DNA of 64,000 nucleotides from Gammaproteobacteria bacterium (GTDB taxonomy: Bacteria; Pseudomonadota; Gammaproteobacteria; Nitrosococcales; Methylophagaceae): assembly GCA_014859375.1 (NCBI GenBank), contig JACUUH010000003.1:1-64000 (forward strand), in the 5' to 3' direction. The notes under the pieces are model-generated. The model was not told where the DNA came from, searched no databases, and saw nothing but the letters and a program-made list of their open reading frames with translations. The position numbers and the translations under genes were made by a program. Below are positions 1 through 9,610 of the stretch, piece after piece (position 1 is the stretch's first letter; every line of letters begins with the position of its first letter).

Positions 1-27
1 GCAAATTCATTGATTACGGGTTTATGA
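1..27 (+). CDS. 3' end of the gene upstream of bioD (partial)
   Basis: The first 27 bases read as eight codons (ANSLITGL) and a TGA stop that overlaps the bioD start codon in an ATGA arrangement, which is typical of co-translated operon genes. In many gammaproteobacteria bioC precedes bioD, so this may be the end of bioC, but eight residues are too few to identify it. The bioD frame is also open to the left edge, so the assignment is only contextual. Confidence 0.3.
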   Translation, partial: ANSLITGL

Positions 28-689
28 CCAGTTTATTTGTAACAGGAACTGATACCGACGCTGGCAAAACAGTGGTTAGCGTTGCTCTTATTGATTTACT
101 CAAACAACAAGGGCTTAGGGTTGCTGGCATGAAACCCATTGCCAGTGGCTGCGAGTTAACCGAAGTCGGTTTGCGTAATGATGATGCAATGCAACTGGCT
201 CAACATGCCAATGTGCATTTACCGTACGACATGATCAATCCTTATGCTTTTCAGCCAGCGATTGCGCCACATATTGCAGCAGAACAAGTTAATGTTGCTA
301 TTGACCTGGATGTCATTAAACACAATTTTGAACAGATACAGCAGCAAGCAGATGCTGTTGTGGTTGAAGGTGCTGGTGGCTGGTTAGTGCCAATCAATCA
401 GCAACACACTATCGCTGATATTGCATCGACACTTAATCTGCCGGTGATACTTGTAGTGGCTATCCGCTTGGGTTGTATCAATCATGCCTTGCTTAGCGTC
501 AATGCCATCGCTCAATCAGGGTCAAGGCTGGTAGGGTGGGTGGCTAATAGTGTTACAGCGAGTAATGAACAAGATGAAATAATTGCTACATTAAAACAAC
601 GGATTGAGGCACCCTGTCTAGGTATCGTGCCAACACTGGCAGCACAACAAGATGCTAAAGATTACATTGAGCTTGGAGAGCTATCATGA
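24..689 (+). CDS. bioD: Dethiobiotin synthetase
   Basis: This cytosolic enzyme closes the ureido ring of dethiobiotin from 7,8-diaminopelargonic acid, CO2 and ATP, the penultimate step of biotin synthesis. The 221-residue product has the family's modified P-loop GTDTDAGKT at residues 8-16, the MKP lysine (Lys37) and the VEGAGGW motif whose Glu115 helps bind the substrate. Length is normal for BioD. The ATG at 24 overlaps the stop of the preceding frame, so it is probably the last intact gene of a bio operon whose other members lie left of the window. A small broken reading frame follows, also overlapping by ATGA. Confidence 0.95.
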   Translation: MTSLFVTGTDTDAGKTVVSVALIDLLKQQGLRVAGMKPIASGCELTEVGLRNDDAMQLAQHANVHLPYDMINPYAFQPAIAPHIAAEQVNVAIDLDVIKHNFEQIQQQADAVVVEGAGGWLVPINQQHTIADIASTLNLPVILVVAIRLGCINHALLSVNAIAQSGSRLVGWVANSVTASNEQDEIIATLKQRIEAPCLGIVPTLAAQQDAKDYIELGELS

Positions 690-852
690 CAAAACTGCTG
701 ATAAGTTTTCTGTTGGTGATTCAAGCCGAATTAGCCTATGGCAACAAGTGATTCATCGGATGGATGTCGAAGCCGCTGATGAAAGAGCCATGATTTGCTT
801 GTATCAGTATTATGATTTGCCGACTTCAGTTGCTAAAACCAAGTGTTCTTAG
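686..852 (+). pseudogene. Small secreted-peptide gene after bioD, apparently frameshifted
   Basis: An ATG at 686 overlaps the bioD stop (ATGA) and starts MTKLLISFLLVIQAELAYG, a convincing signal-peptide sequence, but the frame stops after 21 codons at 751. The neighbouring frame then continues without a stop to 852 as VIHRMDVEAADERAMICLYQ and about 14 further residues. Joining the two by a one-base shift near 745 would give a secreted protein of about 55 residues. An ATG at 652 opens the second frame on its own but lies inside bioD and gives an unlikely N-terminus. The family is not recognised. The alternatives are a genuine 21-residue peptide or a sequencing error. Confidence 0.4.
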
Positions 853-890
853 TTTGGTAGTCTAATCTGACTTGATAGCCGCCGCTGGGC

Positions 891-1045
891 GTTCGTTTCT
901 TTTGCATGCCCAAAAGAAACGAACCAAAGAAAAGGGCACCCGGAATTGCCTTAACTCCAAAAACTAGACTGATTTTATGGCGTGGTCGAAAACTCGCTAC
1001 GCTCAAACACTCGACCACCTTCTCCATAAAATCAGTTTAGTTTTT
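891..1045. repeat. Compound palindromic repeat element
   Basis: Three nested or adjacent inverted repeats lie in noncoding sequence. A perfect 14-bp stem (891-904 with 911-924, GTTCGTTTCTTTTG, 6-nt loop) is followed by a 22-bp stem with one mismatch (959-980 with 1024-1045). Inside the second sits an 8-bp stem GTGGTCGA (982-989 with 1011-1018). The layout resembles short mobile palindromic repeats found between genes and on plasmids in many proteobacteria. I infer that it is a non-autonomous repeat, because no transposase is nearby. It separates the bio operon from the nuclease-like gene. The rest of 853-1150 has no credible gene. Confidence 0.65.
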
Positions 1046-1150
1046 AGCGGCAATTGGCGGGAAAGTGAAGTTCATGATCACCAGTTAAGCAAAGCTGAAC
1101 CCGACTGCTGGCAGAGCGAGCGATCTGGGGCAGCCGTTTATGAGAGGTCA

Positions 1151-2101
1151 TTAGCCACCAACCTTGTTGTACGCCATAGTAATAAACTCTTTGACTGACT
1201 CAAACTCTGATTCCGTCGAAATGGTAAATTCAATATCACCAGTACCGTAATGACCTATTGACGTTACATCTCGATAATTTTTGGTTCCATCAGGAATGTC
1301 AGAGGGTTTGAGCTTTAAAAACAGTTTAATAGTTTTGCCTTTTATTTCCATGCAGACAATGTTCTGCGAGATTTTGTACGCAACATAGAATTTTTTTGGC
1401 ACTTCTTCTATTGACTCATCCAAACCAAGAATAAATTCGCGAATTGTCGCTGTTAGCTCCCGAATTTCCTCACTTTTCCCTTCAAGTCTTTCATCGAATG
1501 TATACGTTGCTGTGGCACGAGTTAGAGCAGCTTTTTTACCCGCCTCAACCATAACTGGATTTTTATATCCATTCTCAGTTGAATTAATAGATGACGAAGA
1601 TACTGTTGTCTTGGAAGTATGAAAAACTTCTTCAAGGTAAAGTGAGTTATTGGAAAATAAGCGATATTTCCATAGCTCGATATTTGCCCCCATGACTTGT
1701 ACAGCATGCAAGTCGTACTTTTTATAGTTTGGCGCAATACAAATAACCCTAACGTCAGACCAATCTATCTTGACTTTACTTCCCAATTTTTTTTGTACAG
1801 CAATTTCAAAATCACCCTTGTGATCTTGTATCCAGTGCAAATAGAAAAGACTTTGATTGATCAACTCTGATGATTCGACTTTTTTGTATTCGATAATGAC
1901 GGGATTATCTTCTTCTGATAAGGCAAGACTATCGATTCGTCCAGCATGTTGAGCGCCAGTTGAAAACTCACTCGCAACAAATCGGCAATTAAATACTGTT
2001 TCGAGGTTTTTCTCAATCAGTGACTGCAAGTCCTTTTCCAGTGCGAAGTTCTTCTGCTCTACGGCAGACAACTTGTCACCTAAAATATCGAAAATTGGCA
2101 T
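1151..2101 (-). CDS. PD-(D/E)XK nuclease-like protein with C-terminal DUF5655 domain
   Basis: The 316-residue protein has two parts. Residues 1-110 look like a PD-(D/E)XK fold: a helix with Glu22, then GRIDSLAL with Asp57, then VIIEYKK giving Glu71-x-Lys73, the classic D...ExK catalytic pattern of NucS/restriction-type nucleases. Residues from about 210 to 316 match DUF5655, including KGKTIKLFLKLKP and a YRDVTSIGHYGTGDIEF segment. Such proteins are often annotated as predicted transport proteins or endonuclease-like proteins, and no activity is established to my knowledge. The gene stands alone, is AT-rich relative to bioD, and abuts a palindromic repeat, which suggests recent acquisition. 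A role in DNA cleavage or defence is inference only. Confidence 0.75.
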   Translation of the reverse strand: MPIFDILGDKLSAVEQKNFALEKDLQSLIEKNLETVFNCRFVASEFSTGAQHAGRIDSLALSEEDNPVIIEYKKVESSELINQSLFYLHWIQDHKGDFEIAVQKKLGSKVKIDWSDVRVICIAPNYKKYDLHAVQVMGANIELWKYRLFSNNSLYLEEVFHTSKTTVSSSSINSTENGYKNPVMVEAGKKAALTRATATYTFDERLEGKSEEIRELTATIREFILGLDESIEEVPKKFYVAYKISQNIVCMEIKGKTIKLFLKLKPSDIPDGTKNYRDVTSIGHYGTGDIEFTISTESEFESVKEFITMAYNKVGG

Positions 2102-2209
2102 GTGATGATTACTCCATTGTTTCTTTGGTTTCTAACATGTCATTAAGGGGAATAAAAATCCCCTGCAACTCTATACTTATACGGACAATAATTCTTAGTA
2201 ATTTAATAA

Positions 2210-2866
2210 TCAAGCTAACACTGGGAATAGGGTAATGTCATCACCCAACTGCCAAGCAGGATATTTAGTCATAATGCTATTGAACAACTCTGACTCAATA
2301 AATTGGTTTAACCATTTTTGAATATGCGGGTAGGGGCTTTGATCAAACCAAGCTTTATCAGAAAAGGCGAATTGACGAATAAAAGGCAGGATAGCCATAT
2401 CAGCATAGGTGATGCGATCACAGATCAAATAACCATTCTTTTCTAATTGCTGTTCTAAGTTGATTAAGGTTTTTTCAGCCTGTTGGCGATAATAGTCTTG
2501 TGTGTGCTCGGGGTAACGATCAGCATATTTATAACGATCTAAATAATATTTAAATTCACCATCGTTTTGGGCAATAAGTTCTTGGCTGAGTTGCTGTTGT
2601 GATTCTGTTAGATCGTGATACCACTGGTCAGGGTCACGTTGATTAAGCGCCCATTTCATAATATCTAAACTTTCTTCAATTACTCTGTTGTCAGCAGTGA
2701 GTAATACTGGCACGGTGGCTTTGGGTGATAGTTCAAGGAGTTGTTGTGGTTTATTTTTTAATTCGATTTCGCGTAATTCAAGCTGAATCTCGCTGTTAGC
2801 AATGGCTAAACGTGCTCGCATAGCATAAGGGCAGCGACGGAAACTATATAAAATGGCATTATTCAT
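2210..2866 (-). CDS. Glutathione S-transferase family protein
   Basis: The 218-residue product has the two-domain GST layout: a thioredoxin-like N-terminal domain (about 1-80) and an all-helical C-terminal domain. Residues 12-15 are CPYA within RRCPYAMRARL, which places a cysteine where tyrosine or serine GSTs have their catalytic residue, as in omega-class and glutaredoxin-2-like enzymes. The segment KATVPVL carries the conserved cis-proline and EES follows further on for glutathione binding. It probably works as a thiol transferase or glutathione-dependent reductase in the cytosol; the substrate cannot be told. It is divergently transcribed from the RND efflux genes and has no operon partner. 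Confidence 0.85.
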   Translation of the reverse strand: MNNAILYSFRRCPYAMRARLAIANSEIQLELREIELKNKPQQLLELSPKATVPVLLTADNRVIEESLDIMKWALNQRDPDQWYHDLTESQQQLSQELIAQNDGEFKYYLDRYKYADRYPEHTQDYYRQQAEKTLINLEQQLEKNGYLICDRITYADMAILPFIRQFAFSDKAWFDQSPYPHIQKWLNQFIESELFNSIMTKYPAWQLGDDITLFPVLA

Positions 2867-4106: not shown

Positions 4107-7100
4107 GTCAAGCAAAATTGGGCATTTCGGGTCGTATCGCAGCCTCATTTCAAGACTCGGAGATCACACCTTTATTGGCGTTACTAGCTATTTTATTAGG
4201 CGTGTTTGCTCTGATGGTGACACCGAGAGAAGAAGAGCCACAAATTGATGTCACTTTTGCCAATATTTTTGTGGCTTATCCCGGTGCCTCTGCCAAAGAA
4301 GTTGAGCAACTTATTTCTACACCGGCAGAACAAGTCATTTCTGAAATTCCGGGTATTGAACATGTTTATTCCGTGTCAAAACCGGGGATGTCAGTGTTGA
4401 CAGCGCAATTTGAAGTGGGTGAACAAGCGACTGAGTCTATCGTTAATTTATATAACAAAATTTATTCAAATAGTGATTGGTTGCCAGCACAACTTGGTGT
4501 CGCACAACCGATAATTAAACCTAAAGGTATTGACGATGTACCTGTGGTGACGATGACGCTTTGGAGTGAAGATAAAACACAGACAAGTTATGAGTTACAA
4601 CAGGTTGCTCATGCACTGGAGGTCGAGTTAAAGCGAATTCCTGGAACACGTGATATTTATACTGTGGGAGGGCCAGATCATGTGGTTCGCATTCAACTCG
4701 ATCTTGAACGATTAGCCGGTTATGACATTGATCCACTCGAATTAAAACAGGCGTTAATGGCAGCCAATGCTTCAGCTGAAGCTGGCATCTTAATCAACAA
4801 TGATAAGACCAGCTCTGTGCAAGCTGGCGAATTTTTAACAACAGTAGATGATCTTTATCAACTGGTTGTAGGTGTTCGTAACAATGCACCGGTGTATTTG
4901 ATTGATGTTGCTTCTGTTATGGAAGGTGCTGATCAAGCTCAACGTTATACATGGTTTGGTACGGGCATGGCAGCGGCGGATAAAGGAGTTGCTGCATCGG
5001 GCGAGTTTCCCGCTGTTACGTTAGCCATTGCCAAACAACCAGGACAAAATGCTGCTGATATTGCAGATGCGGTGATTACACGCTTTGGTGAGCTGCATAA
5101 TGTGGTCGTGCCGGAAGGGGTTGAGATGACCGTGACTCGGAACTATGGTCAAACTGCTAATGATAAGGCTCAAACCTTAATTAAAAAATTAATCTTCGTC
5201 ACCCTTGCTGTAGTGGTGTTAGTGTTAGTTACCTTAGGTTGGCGAGAAGCGATTATTGTCGGCGTTGCTGTGGTCGTGACCTTAATGTTGATGCTATTTG
5301 CATCATGGGCATGGGGCTTTACTCTCAATCGAGTGTCATTATTCGCTCTTATATTCTCGATTGGTATTTTGGTTGATGATGCCATTGTGGTGGTTGAAAA
5401 CATTCATCGACACCATCAGCTTGGCGGAAAGTCGTTACGTGAAGCCATTCCACTTGCAGTTGATGAAGTCGGTGGCCCGACTATTTTAGCCACCTTTGCC
5501 GTTATTGCTGCGTTATTACCAATGGCGTTTGTCACTGGTTTAATGGGGCCGTATATGAGTCCTATTCCAATTAATGCCAGTATTGGCATGATCTTATCGT
5601 TGTTTGTTGCCTACATTTTAACGCCCTGGATGGTGTTTAAAATGATGGCTAAAACCAAACATAATGCAGCTTCGAGTGACTTATCTACACCGACTTCGAC
5701 ACGACTGTACAGTTTGTTTCATCGTATCATTGGCTTATTTGTATTAAGACCTAACAGTAGACTTTGGCGATGGCTGTTATTGATGGCAATGATTGGCTTG
5801 ATTGTAGTGTCTGTTGGTTTGGCAGCAATGAAATTGGTCGTATTAAAAATGTTGCCGTTTGATAATAAATCCGAATTTCAAGTTGTGGTTGATATGCCAG
5901 AAGGAACCAGTTTGGAACGCACAGCAGGTTTGATGCGAGATTTAGCTGCCTATATCGCAACGGTGCCAGAAGTCACTGATTATCAAATTTATGTTGGTAC
6001 TGCAGCACCAATCAACTTTAATGGTCTGGTCAGACAATATTATTTAAGGCAGGGGGTTGAGTTTGCTGATATTCAGGTTAATTTGACTGATAAACACTTA
6101 AGATCGAGACAAAGTCATGATATTGCACGTTCAGTTAGGGAGCCTTTGCAACAGATAGGTCAACATTGGGGTGGTAATATCAAGATTGTTGAAGTGCCGC
6201 CTGGCCCACCAGTGCAAGCGCCACTTGTTGTTGAAGTTTATGGTTTGGATTATGACAATCAGTTGGCTTTAACAGGTCAAATTCGAACCGTGTTTGAGCA
6301 AACAGAGGATATTGCTGATAGTGATGATAGTATCGAATTTGCAGCGGTACGCAAACGACTCCGTATTGATCAACAAAAAGCGGCGCAATTAGGTTTAAGC
6401 CAGCAACAGATAGTGAATGCCATTTCATTAGCATTGGCAGGTGATGATGTTGGTTTTCTTCATAACGAAACAGCTAAATATGCAGTGCCATTACGAGTGC
6501 AATTGCCGACTGCTGATCTAGCTGATATCTCATCTATATTGAAATTACGCTTACGTAATATTCAGGGACAATTGATTGCTATTGGTGATGTGGTCAAGGT
6601 GTTTGATAGTAAGCGCGAGCAAACCATTTATCATAAAGATTTATTGCCCGTGAGTTATGTCACTGCCGATATGGCAGGAGAATTGGATAGCCCGCTTTAT
6701 GGCATGTATGCACTTTATCAACAATTTGAGCAATTAGGCATTGAGCAGTTTTTAGTTAAGGCACCATTGTTGCCGATTAACGGCAGCATTAAATGGGATG
6801 GTGAATGGCAAGTCACTTACGAGACCTTTCGTGATATGGGCGCGGCTTATGCTGTCGGTATTATTTTGATTTATCTCTTAGTTGTCGCTCAATTTAAATC
6901 GTATTTAGTGCCTTTGGTGATTATGGCGCCGATACCATTAACTATTATTGGTGTGATGCCGGGTCATGCTTTATTGGGTGCACAATTTACGGCAACCTCA
7001 ATGATAGGGATGATCGCGATGGCGGGGATTATTGTGCGCAACTCAATCTTGCTGGTGGACTTTGTTAATCAAGCTATTAAACAAGGCACACAATTGGAGC

Positions 7101-7309
7101 AAGCGGTAATTCAGGCGGCAGCAATACGGGCGAAGCCGATCATGCTGACTGCTGTTGCAGCGATGTTAGGCGCTTTATTTATTTTGGATGATCCAATATT
7201 TAATGGTTTAGCCGTTGCATTATTATTCGGAATTTTAGTTTCAACCTTGCTGACGCTATTAGTTATTCCTGTTATGTACTATGCGTTGATGAAAACACGC
7301 TTAACATGA
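4103..7309 (+). CDS. RND efflux pump, inner-membrane permease
   Basis: The 1068-residue protein has the AcrB-type duplicated plan: a first membrane helix (LLALLAILLGVFALMV), a large periplasmic loop, a bundle of five or six helices, a second periplasmic loop and a final bundle. The proton-relay pair is seen as IGILVDDAIVVVENIHRH in the fourth-helix region. The conserved N-terminal PGASAKEVEQLISTPAEQ is typical of the heavy-metal/multidrug RND superfamily, though length and the DD motif favour a drug or solvent (HAE1-like) pump over a metal pump. Start is GTG at 4103, overlapping the adaptor stop. Cargo is unknown. Confidence 0.9.
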   Translation: MSQAKLGISGRIAASFQDSEITPLLALLAILLGVFALMVTPREEEPQIDVTFANIFVAYPGASAKEVEQLISTPAEQVISEIPGIEHVYSVSKPGMSVLTAQFEVGEQATESIVNLYNKIYSNSDWLPAQLGVAQPIIKPKGIDDVPVVTMTLWSEDKTQTSYELQQVAHALEVELKRIPGTRDIYTVGGPDHVVRIQLDLERLAGYDIDPLELKQALMAANASAEAGILINNDKTSSVQAGEFLTTVDDLYQLVVGVRNNAPVYLIDVASVMEGADQAQRYTWFGTGMAAADKGVAASGEFPAVTLAIAKQPGQNAADIADAVITRFGELHNVVVPEGVEMTVTRNYGQTANDKAQTLIKKLIFVTLAVVVLVLVTLGWREAIIVGVAVVVTLMLMLFASWAWGFTLNRVSLFALIFSIGILVDDAIVVVENIHRHHQLGGKSLREAIPLAVDEVGGPTILATFAVIAALLPMAFVTGLMGPYMSPIPINASIGMILSLFVAYILTPWMVFKMMAKTKHNAASSDLSTPTSTRLYSLFHRIIGLFVLRPNSRLWRWLLLMAMIGLIVVSVGLAAMKLVVLKMLPFDNKSEFQVVVDMPEGTSLERTAGLMRDLAAYIATVPEVTDYQIYVGTAAPINFNGLVRQYYLRQGVEFADIQVNLTDKHLRSRQSHDIARSVREPLQQIGQHWGGNIKIVEVPPGPPVQAPLVVEVYGLDYDNQLALTGQIRTVFEQTEDIADSDDSIEFAAVRKRLRIDQQKAAQLGLSQQQIVNAISLALAGDDVGFLHNETAKYAVPLRVQLPTADLADISSILKLRLRNIQGQLIAIGDVVKVFDSKREQTIYHKDLLPVSYVTADMAGELDSPLYGMYALYQQFEQLGIEQFLVKAPLLPINGSIKWDGEWQVTYETFRDMGAAYAVGIILIYLLVVAQFKSYLVPLVIMAPIPLTIIGVMPGHALLGAQFTATSMIGMIAMAGIIVRNSILLVDFVNQAIKQGTQLEQAVIQAAAIRAKPIMLTAVAAMLGALFILDDPIFNGLAVALLFGILVSTLLTLLVIPVMYYALMKTRLT

Positions 7310-7328
7310 TTTAAGCCTGAACTTAATT

Positions 7329-7928
7329 CTACTCTTTTGATAGCCGCAGAATTTCTGCTTGTCTTGTGAAGGTATGTTTAACGAGCAGATTGCGATCATG
7401 TTCTGTCATATGACTAAACACGAGACGTAATAAATAAGGTGTTTGTTGGGGTGCATCATAGGGTTGACTACAACCGATGACACTGGCGATACCTTGAATG
7501 GTCGCACCCGAAGGGCGTAATTCAATTTTGAATTCAAAAGCCTGTTTGTTCTGATATTGATGTTCAGACATTAGTGCAAGACCGCCACCACTTAAATTAA
7601 CATCAACTGAAACACAGTCAGAAGGGCGTGTTTTTTGACGATTGACTAGTTGTGATATCAAAGTGATTTTGTCGTTAAGTAAACGCAGGGCGCGTGCAAC
7701 TTCACGATCGGTTTGGTTGATCTGATCAACAACATGACTGAACGCATTTTGTAGCGTTGTTAATTGTTGCTGTTCGGAATTTGTATCGTCAGTATTTTTA
7801 TTGCGTAACACAGTAATAAAATTGGCAACATCAGTTGGGTCTATGGGGGTTAGTATTAGGTAAACAGTGTCATTTATCCGGAAAAACTCGCGGCGATCAT
7901 CATTAAATTCAGGTAAATTTTCCAACAC
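7329..7928 (-). CDS. PilZ-domain protein with long insertion
   Basis: The 199-residue protein carries both halves of the c-di-GMP-binding PilZ signature: RREFFR with R13xxxR17, and NLSGGG (N111xSxxG116). They are separated by nearly 95 residues, whereas compact PilZ domains have them about 20-30 apart. The intervening sequence is mostly polar and probably helical (for example AFSHVVDQINQTDREVARAL). This resembles the non-canonical PilZ proteins that oligomerise through a heptad helix, described in xanthomonads and present in pseudomonads. It probably transmits c-di-GMP signals to motility or adhesion. It is convergent with the RND pump gene, and the partner is unknown. Confidence 0.8.
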   Translation of the reverse strand: MLENLPEFNDDRREFFRINDTVYLILTPIDPTDVANFITVLRNKNTDDTNSEQQQLTTLQNAFSHVVDQINQTDREVARALRLLNDKITLISQLVNRQKTRPSDCVSVDVNLSGGGLALMSEHQYQNKQAFEFKIELRPSGATIQGIASVIGCSQPYDAPQQTPYLLRLVFSHMTEHDRNLLVKHTFTRQAEILRLSKE

Positions 7929-8053
7929 ATTACTCCTTCGTTAATACTCAGAGGTTATATTCCTATGACACGTCAATTTGCACAAAATCATCTTTTGTCA
8001 TCCCAGCTTTTACCTGGATGACAGGTTCGATTAATTTAGCAGCAAATCCAATA

Positions 8054-8181
8054 TATACCCAAAGTACTTGAAGCTGCAGGTAGGCGGCAACTAAGCGAGT
8101 CCCCATGAGCATAGATAAACTATGTGATTGGGGTGAGCGAACGTAGCCAACACCGCTGCAGCTTCAAGTAGGAAGGGTATA
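8054..8181. repeat. ERIC-like (intergenic repeat unit) element
   Basis: A 128-bp imperfect palindrome runs from TATACCC at 8054 to GGGTATA at 8181. Its 26-bp ends match each other except for five central positions (8054-8079 versus 8156-8181). Its core matches the Enterobacterial Repetitive Intergenic Consensus: 8118-8139 agrees with the ERIC2 primer sequence at 19 of 22 positions and 8095-8116 with the complement of ERIC1R at 17 of 22, by hand comparison from memory. Length is almost exactly that of the ERIC consensus. It lies 10 bp beyond the phoH stop codon, so it probably ends up in the 3' untranslated region. Confidence 0.88.
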
Positions 8182-8191
8182 GTATGCCAGA

Positions 8192-9610
8192 TCAGAGATG
8201 CTCTGATGCAAAGTCTGCGAGTCGAGAGCGTTCACCTCGTAACAAGGTGATATGTCCGCTGTGAGGCCAGTTTTTGAAACGATCAACAACATAGGTCAGA
8301 CCAGATGTGGTTTCACTTAAATACGGTGTATCAATCTGAGCAATATTACCTAAACAAACAACTTTAGTGCCTGGACCTGAACGCGTGATCAGGGTTTTCA
8401 TTTGTTTGGATGTCAGGTTTTGAGCCTCGTCGATAATGATGAAGCGATTAAGGAAAGTACGTCCACGCATAAAATTGAGTGAACGAATTTTAATGCGGCT
8501 TTGTAACAAATCGTTAGTGGCTTGTTTGCCCCATTCACCAGCGCTAATATCAGTTTTGTTTAGCACTTCTAAGTTATCCATTAATGCACCCATCCACGGT
8601 GTCATTTTTTCTTCTTCTGTACCTGGTAAAAAACCAATATCTTCACCAACAGGCACGGTAACACGAGTCATGATAATTTCGGCATAGCGTTTGTGTTCGA
8701 TGGTTTGCGTCAGAGCCGCAGCCAAAGTTAATAGCGTTTTACCTGTACCTGCTTGTCCAAGTAAGGATACAAAATCAACATTAGGATCCATTAATAAATT
8801 AAGGGCAAAATTTTGTTCGCGATTGTGAGCAGTAATGCCCCAAACAGCATGATTTTCTTTACGATAATCATGGGTTAATTCAATTTTTGCTGAAGCGTCG
8901 GTGATCTCACGAACAACTGCTTCAATCGTGTTATCTTCACCTGGCGAATAGATTAGCTGATTGGGATGCCAGTCTTTAACAACATCACCTTCAATGCTGT
9001 AGAAGGTGCGTCCATCTTCTGTCCATGACTCCAAGCGGTTAAGATCATTCCAGAAATCAGCTTCAAGCTCGACCGAACCACGATAGAGTAGATCAACGTC
9101 ATCTAACACTTTATCGTTGTAATAATCCTCAGAATGTAAACCTAATACCGAGGCTTTTATACGCAGGTTTATGTCTTTTGAAACTAAGGTAACGGTAACA
9201 TCAGGATGTGATTTCTGAAGGCTACTAACGATGCCTAAGATGGCATTATCGGCCTGATGACCAGGTAATTCTTTTGGTAAATCCTGAACCATTTGGGTTG
9301 TTTGGAAAAATAAACGTCCACTTGCTTTAGGATGATCTTCATTTAATTCGGTAGAAGGTAAAGGTATGCCGTTGGCAATCGCTTCACTATCACCAATTTC
9401 CATCATCAAGTCATCTAAAAAACGACTGACTTGGCGTACATTACGAGAAACTTCGGACAGGCCTTTTTTACCGGCATCAAGCTCTTCTAATACCACCATC
9501 GGCAGAAAAATATCATGTTCATCAAATCGAAATAATGCTGTTGGATCGTGCATCAAAACATTGGTATCTAAAACCAGAAGACGTTTTCCAGTTATGATTT
9601 TTTTGATCAT
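8192..9610 (-). CDS. PhoH family protein with N-terminal PIN domain (PhoH2 type)
   Basis: The 472-residue protein joins a PIN ribonuclease domain to a PhoH ATPase/helicase-like domain. The PIN part opens with LLVLDTNVLMHDP, whose Asp15 begins the acidic catalytic set, and continues with VVLEELD and DNAILGI. The ATPase part, from about residue 270, has Walker A GQAGTGKT and Walker B IIIDEAQN. Proteins of this architecture are reported to act as RNA-unwinding ribonucleases in some bacteria; here RNA turnover is a family-based inference. It is monocistronic and divergent from metH. An ERIC-like repeat follows its stop. Confidence 0.9.
   Translation of the reverse strand: MIKKIITGKRLLVLDTNVLMHDPTALFRFDEHDIFLPMVVLEELDAGKKGLSEVSRNVRQVSRFLDDLMMEIGDSEAIANGIPLPSTELNEDHPKASGRLFFQTTQMVQDLPKELPGHQADNAILGIVSSLQKSHPDVTVTLVSKDINLRIKASVLGLHSEDYYNDKVLDDVDLLYRGSVELEADFWNDLNRLESWTEDGRTFYSIEGDVVKDWHPNQLIYSPGEDNTIEAVVREITDASAKIELTHDYRKENHAVWGITAHNREQNFALNLLMDPNVDFVSLLGQAGTGKTLLTLAAALTQTIEHKRYAEIIMTRVTVPVGEDIGFLPGTEEEKMTPWMGALMDNLEVLNKTDISAGEWGKQATNDLLQSRIKIRSLNFMRGRTFLNRFIIIDEAQNLTSKQMKTLITRSGPGTKVVCLGNIAQIDTPYLSETTSGLTYVVDRFKNWPHSGHITLLRGERSRLADFASEHL

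Follow-up and report, generated by a model that had tools for sequence, protein, structure and literature searches.

The window analysed here, a stretch of 64,000 nucleotides from a gammaproteobacterium of the family Methylophagaceae (assembly GCA_014859375.1, contig JACUUH010000003.1), raises the question of how a lone gene for a nuclease-like protein came to stand among housekeeping genes and what its product might do there. The gene occupies 1151-2101 of the minus strand (ATG at 2101, TAA at 1153-1151) and encodes 316 amino acids. A GGAG at 2112-2115 on the same strand, 10 nt before the ATG, is by its sequence the likely ribosome-binding site and falls within the 5′ end of the cassette described below. 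A preliminary description had pointed to a D57 and E71-x-K73 pattern, to a C-terminal DUF5655 domain and to an isolated, AT-rich position next to a repeat. All of these residues are present in the translation, and Pfam bears out the domain: DUF5655 (PF18899), at residues 204-312 (E 3.2e-9; 37.2 bits, cut-off 24), is the sole Pfam family above cut-off in the protein. The gene is indeed isolated, its neighbours being bioD, a GST gene and what is left of a gene for a BTLCP protease, and the adjacent repeat does recur in the genome. The AT-richness turned out to be mild only: the GC content is 38.0%, the mean being 41.6%, and 15 of 316 segments of equal size have a value as low.

The protein can be assigned to a family over nearly its entire length. 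Three PDC-S18 models of the PADLOC collection span it (E 3.2e-114, 3e-70 and 8.8e-12), the best of them covering residues 2-314, and two are matched by every one of the 37 rows of our alignment, which comprises the window protein and 36 of 44 related loci. The eight other loci were dropped because of an internal stop (L019, L026, L028), a partial sequence (L031, L040, L044) or a frameshift (L041, L043). Three PDC-S11 models, also from PADLOC, gave weaker matches confined to residues 1-95. No Shedu family occurred among the Pfam and PADLOC matches down to E 1, the PHROGs search gave nothing better than E 0.16, and the NucS model of NCBIfam stayed below threshold at residues 20-97, with 12.9 of the 216 bits required. 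We take the family of the window protein to be COG3586. In PMC1189080, COG3586 is given as a family of putative PD-(D/E)XK endonucleases.

Sequence searches against solved structures returned nothing useful, and the fold was analysed on an AlphaFold2 model built with 37 sequences (mean pLDDT 79.5, pTM 0.65, low confidence at residues 162-198). An N-terminal domain (residues 15-158; 1628-2059, minus strand) was delimited from the model, from VIA-align and from conservation. The alpha-beta-beta-beta-alpha-beta core is present in the model, with helices at 22-31/33-37 and 78-93 and strands at 39-47, 55-62, 67-72 and 118-123. By VIA-align the domain resembles NucS/EndoMS (2vld: Z 11.9, rmsd 2.2, 106 residues aligned; 5gke: Z 11.8, rmsd 4.2, 111 aligned) and the Shedu protein SduA (8ps4: Z 9.5, rmsd 3.5, 136 aligned), and EndoMS also ranked at the top in Foldseek (E 1.1e-4). 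The C-terminal DUF5655 domain, extended by VIA-align to residues 200-315 (1157-1504, minus strand), has a YdhG/YjbR-like fold, with Z 10.6 to the YdhG-type chains 9t2w and 2oc6 (rmsd 2.7-2.8, 106 aligned) and 8.9 to YjbR; its resemblance to the DNA-binding domain of T4 MotA (Z 7.2) is middling by the tool's own scale.

The preliminary description had named the PD-(D/E)XK fold and the conservation of the acidic residues and the lysine as the points on which its proposal could fall. AlphaFold2 and VIA-align gave this fold; D57 is invariant in all 37 rows, and E71, K73 and Q83 are each kept in 36. D57, E71 and K73 presumably correspond to the catalytic residues of EndoMS. The reading of the N-terminal domain as a PD-(D/E)XK nuclease is well supported, the cleavage activity itself being predicted from fold and residues, and the strong conservation provides clear residues for mutation. 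The single exception for E71, K73 and Q83 is L039 (938-1870), where these three and G54 are lost together and the remainder is kept; this is possibly a catalytically dead homologue.

The origin of the gene can be read from its close relatives, fourteen loci (L001-L014) from 13 genomes and several families, with 85-93% identity. When the window was compared with the 44 loci by BLASTN, the similarity to these relatives was found to run from some 35 nt ahead of the start codon to some 14 nt beyond the stop codon. Their flanks are otherwise different, with the exception of the sister genome (L004), which matches throughout. The ends of the shared unit in the relatives resemble GTTAGAAGCC and GGCTTCTAAC, the complementary ends of integron cassettes; the core consensus of attC sites is GTTRRRY and RYYYAAC. 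Most members of the clade into which the window protein falls (16 rows, support 100/99) are carried on cassettes, and GTTA stands at the 5′ border in 13 of the 16 rows, the others being L002, L003 and L042.

For the detection of attC sites a covariance model was adopted, since two hand-written scanners had failed. The first gave no match in 96,688 shuffled bases but also missed known sites, and the second produced about 0.9 matches per 10 kb of shuffled DNA at threshold 11. The model was built from 18 sites of these loci, picked with the second scanner, and 7 of them adjoin the gene. An Rfam search of five loci at the gathering cut-offs reported no attC family and only one guanidine-II riboswitch. 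Such a riboswitch lies at 51-95 of L005, where the stretch with the Alishewanella integron array begins.

Over 46 sources (639 kb) the covariance model gave 62 matches to E 0.1, located within 15 sources. An attC site adjoins the gene in ten of the fourteen close loci (L001, L002, L003, L005, L006, L007, L008, L009, L011 and L014), and in six of the fourteen (L001, L002, L003, L006, L009 and L014) at least one such site is outside the training set of the model. No gene-adjoining match was obtained in L004, L010, L012 and L013. L005, from Alishewanella aestuarii, alone holds 18 attC matches. Beyond this group, attC was also detected at L030, which is 75-77% identical, at the fragment L044 and on each side of a copy on a Saccharobesus plasmid, a two-piece match that is unannotated as a gene; in L101, L102 and L103, distant relatives from plasmids and phages, this model detected no attC. 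An integron integrase is encoded on the contig of the gene in four of the fourteen loci (L003, L005, L007 and L008), and 8 of the 13 genomes hold an integrase above cut-off, one of them with eight internal stops. Because attC adjoins the gene in ten loci and the integrase shares its contig in four, we regard the relatives as an integron gene cassette, and the cassette origin of the gene, absent from the preliminary description and our main finding, is very well supported. On the tree, the label 'attC-adjacent' (11 of 37 rows) requires 7 changes, a number as low being reached in 11 of 500 shuffles; it is clustered, yet it does not trace to one clean event. In L001, two tandem copies of the cassette occupy 6940-8948, with starts 1061 bp apart.

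In the window copy, similarity to the cassette-borne relatives stops at about the 5′ border GTTAGAAACC (2127-2136, minus strand), whose core G|TTAGAA agrees with G|TTRRRY save for the seventh base, an A where the consensus has Y. Behind the stop codon lies a remnant of the size of an attC site (1064-1150, minus strand). Run without filters, the covariance model still fails to recognise it (best match 6.0 bits, E 1.2), and the same holds for the remnant of the sister. Folded as single strands, the two remnants are no better than shuffles (z 0.14 in the window, 0.71 in the sister) in a test that discriminates poorly, as the attC of L007 reaches only z -0.65 and that of L005 z -2.79. Since the attC is unrecognisable in both genomes, the cassette status of the window copy rests on its descent and its 5′ border. 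With the 5′ core kept and no recognisable attC, it looks domesticated, and it appears to be a cassette that is stuck in the chromosome outside an array. The host genome has an integron of its own: contig C89 encodes an integrase with no internal stops (453 bits against a cut-off of 265), the only one above cut-off in the genome, and the gene itself lies on contig C76 among housekeeping genes. The stretch of C89 (L056, 49-1807, genome G000) consists of the integrase, a first cassette with an ORF of 156 amino acids and no Pfam family, one attC and the contig end.

The insertion site could be defined by comparison within the genus. On the left of the gene stands the bioD-like gene (24-689, plus strand), followed by an ORF (652-852, plus strand) over the remnant of a BTLCP (Peptidase_C93) gene; on the right stands the GST gene (2210-2866, minus strand, as the cassette gene). 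The BTLCP remnant has an internal deletion of roughly 500 bp and the gene is full-length in the sister L004 (9253-9909) and in L063. An interspersed repeat (880-1063, plus strand), which recurs four times elsewhere in the genome (80-86% identity), adjoins the attC remnant. Its core is partly palindromic, and it also lies beside the cassette in L004. Among the 28 genomes of the same genus that were searched, the gene was found in the sister G021 only, and G021 and L004 appear to be one record. Of 29 genus loci around GST matches, two are the window and the sister, 12 are uninformative as their stretch has no bioD, and 15 loci from 14 genomes have both bioD and GST; none of these 15 carries the gene. 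In eight of them bioD and GST are within about 50 bp. In L063, bioD, full-length BTLCP and GST are consecutive, and 4 bp separate BTLCP from the convergent GST gene. Measured against L063, the surplus of the window is 853-2209, comprising the repeat, the attC-sized remnant and the gene. From this we infer a single insertion at a secondary site in the common ancestor of the window species and its sister, followed by decay of attC.

The gene has been under strong constraint. For 13 close relatives (L001-L014 without L004) the median dN/dS is 0.035 (range 0.012-0.080), calculated from 54 of 78 pairs, as the remaining pairs gave no dS and were dropped. Between the window and the sister, dN is 0.034 and dS 0.302 (ratio 0.11), and the identity of the product (92.7%) compares with 90.4% for GST, 89.4% for an RND subunit and 96.4% for bioD. 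Judged from the purifying selection and these identities, the window copy looks like a working gene in a new place. Across the class, its distribution is rare and patchy: in an even sample, 6 of 369 genomes match at E 1e-40, including that of the window, and of the other five matches one is interrupted by a stop codon, a second is broken into two pieces and a third is fragmentary. The E. coli genomes gave no match. In IMG/VR the single sequence found no relative, and the alignment as query found two at 49-50%, neither with an attC match.

With respect to function, the preliminary description had suggested a single-gene defence or nucleic-acid-processing protein. This suggestion is favoured by the full-length PDC-S18 match, and the defence role as such has the standing of a candidate. 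According to PMC12988326, PDCs are single-gene candidates obtained via guilt-by-embedding, mostly unvalidated. Anti-phage cassettes have become known from integrons: at least 16 of 179 cassettes of Vibrio cholerae are anti-phage (Darracq 2025, per PMC12409362) and mobile integrons carry them as well (Kieffer 2025, per PMC12409362). In cassettes of Xanthomonas, 20 defence genes are reported, Shedu being one of the systems, by PMC12444791, which also refers to attG insertion in E. coli. The neighbourhoods of more distant relatives are mixed and give no clear picture of defence. A scan of 102 ORFs from 27 loci, chosen among 160 ORFs of 31 loci, for the most part beyond the close clade (to which L010 and L042 belong) and including L030 with its attC, yielded both defence and housekeeping families among those listed (25 of 404 and 25 of 125), pooled over loci and with no background rate. 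The former include PtuA/PtuB, type II methyltransferase, Type ISP and ResIII, the latter LptF/LptG, IspD and chorismate synthase. We found no paper on DUF5655 or PDC-S18, nor any description of the family as an integron cassette, in the literature searched, which covered few subscription papers. Each ingredient is of a known kind, and their combination for the PDC-S18/DUF5655 family is unreported in that literature. A defence function of the gene is likely.

Taken together, we favour with moderate confidence a single-gene defence nuclease that was spread by integrons and of which one copy was domesticated in the chromosome of the window species. Its N-terminal PD-(D/E)XK domain would cut DNA, as fold and residues suggest, and the C-terminal YdhG/YjbR-like domain would probably sense or position the substrate; most likely this would amount to a one-gene defence against phages or plasmids by cleavage of foreign DNA. 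As the relatives show, the gene moves between bacteria as a cassette, in which a single ORF has a ribosome-binding site of its own and is followed by attC. Comparison shows that in the ancestor of the window species and its sister it came to lie in the chromosome outside an array, with BTLCP/bioD on one side and GST on the other; the integron integrase of the genome probably inserted it there, at a secondary site of the attG type. It would then have lost a working attC and become a fixed gene, one on which purifying selection continues.

The same constraint has to be weighed in the light of other functions. A median dN/dS of 0.035 is lower than expected for a fast-evolving defence gene, and a repair role would fit it too: the very strong purifying selection is the main point in favour of a NucS/EndoMS-like nuclease for mismatched or damaged DNA, carried as an adaptive cassette, and NucS/EndoMS (Z 11.9 and 11.8) is also the nearest solved fold. 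We nevertheless consider repair unlikely: the NCBIfam NucS score of 12.9 bits falls far short of the required 216; NucS has its nuclease domain at the C-terminus, the window protein at the N-terminus; the C-terminal domain differs; and the gene occurs rarely and patchily, in 6 of the 369 genomes sampled from the class, that of the window included. Integron arrays hold toxin-antitoxin cassettes, and with the tandem duplicate in L001 this would agree with an addiction or toxin-like cassette that stabilises arrays instead of serving defence. However, in the close relatives the shared unit extends only some 35 nt ahead of the start and some 14 nt beyond the stop, too little for a separate antitoxin ORF of the usual size, and the lone window copy is still under purifying selection outside an array, so that we give this idea little credence. 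For a catalytically dead or moonlighting DNA-binding protein such as a regulator, which would have kept the nuclease fold, one may point to L039 without E71, K73 and Q83 and to the middling resemblance of the C-terminal domain to T4 MotA; against it, all but one of the 37 rows retain the active-site residues, which makes it very unlikely.

A bolder version of the defence reading, possible in our view if rather doubtful, sees in the gene an ancient cassette encoding a host-independent, DNA-sensing defence nuclease with a very general target, which could be domesticated into the core chromosome. A target so general would account for a protein that is 85-93% identical across families at dS values from about 0.8 to above 2.5. 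If this were true, integrons would be a source of permanent, not merely exchangeable, immunity.

Returning to the integron-spread defence nuclease that we favour, several known systems offer themselves for comparison. The C-terminal domain shares its fold with YdhG/DUF1801 and YjbR/DUF419; YdhG/YjbR-type chains comprise 118-124 residues with the domain alone, whereas in the window protein it is fused to a nuclease. NucS/EndoMS is alike in the fold of the nuclease domain and differs in domain order, in the partner domain and in a family score far below cut-off. Shedu SduA is a single-gene defence nuclease; its nuclease domain has a similar fold, but the accessory domain is different and no Shedu sequence model matches here. 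With the anti-phage integron cassettes the gene has in common the single small ORF with attC and, in relatives, arrays with an integrase, whereas the window copy is outside an array, its attC is unrecognisable and its activity is a predicted one. It presents a traceable case of a cassette that is found outside its vehicle and has been retained by selection. PDC-S18 of PADLOC is matched over the full length; that family is an unvalidated candidate, to which the clade of mostly cassette-borne members and the integron as their vehicle are added here. An uncharacterised candidate defence family is now tied to a definite mobile vehicle, as a one-kilobase unit that is simple to clone and assay.
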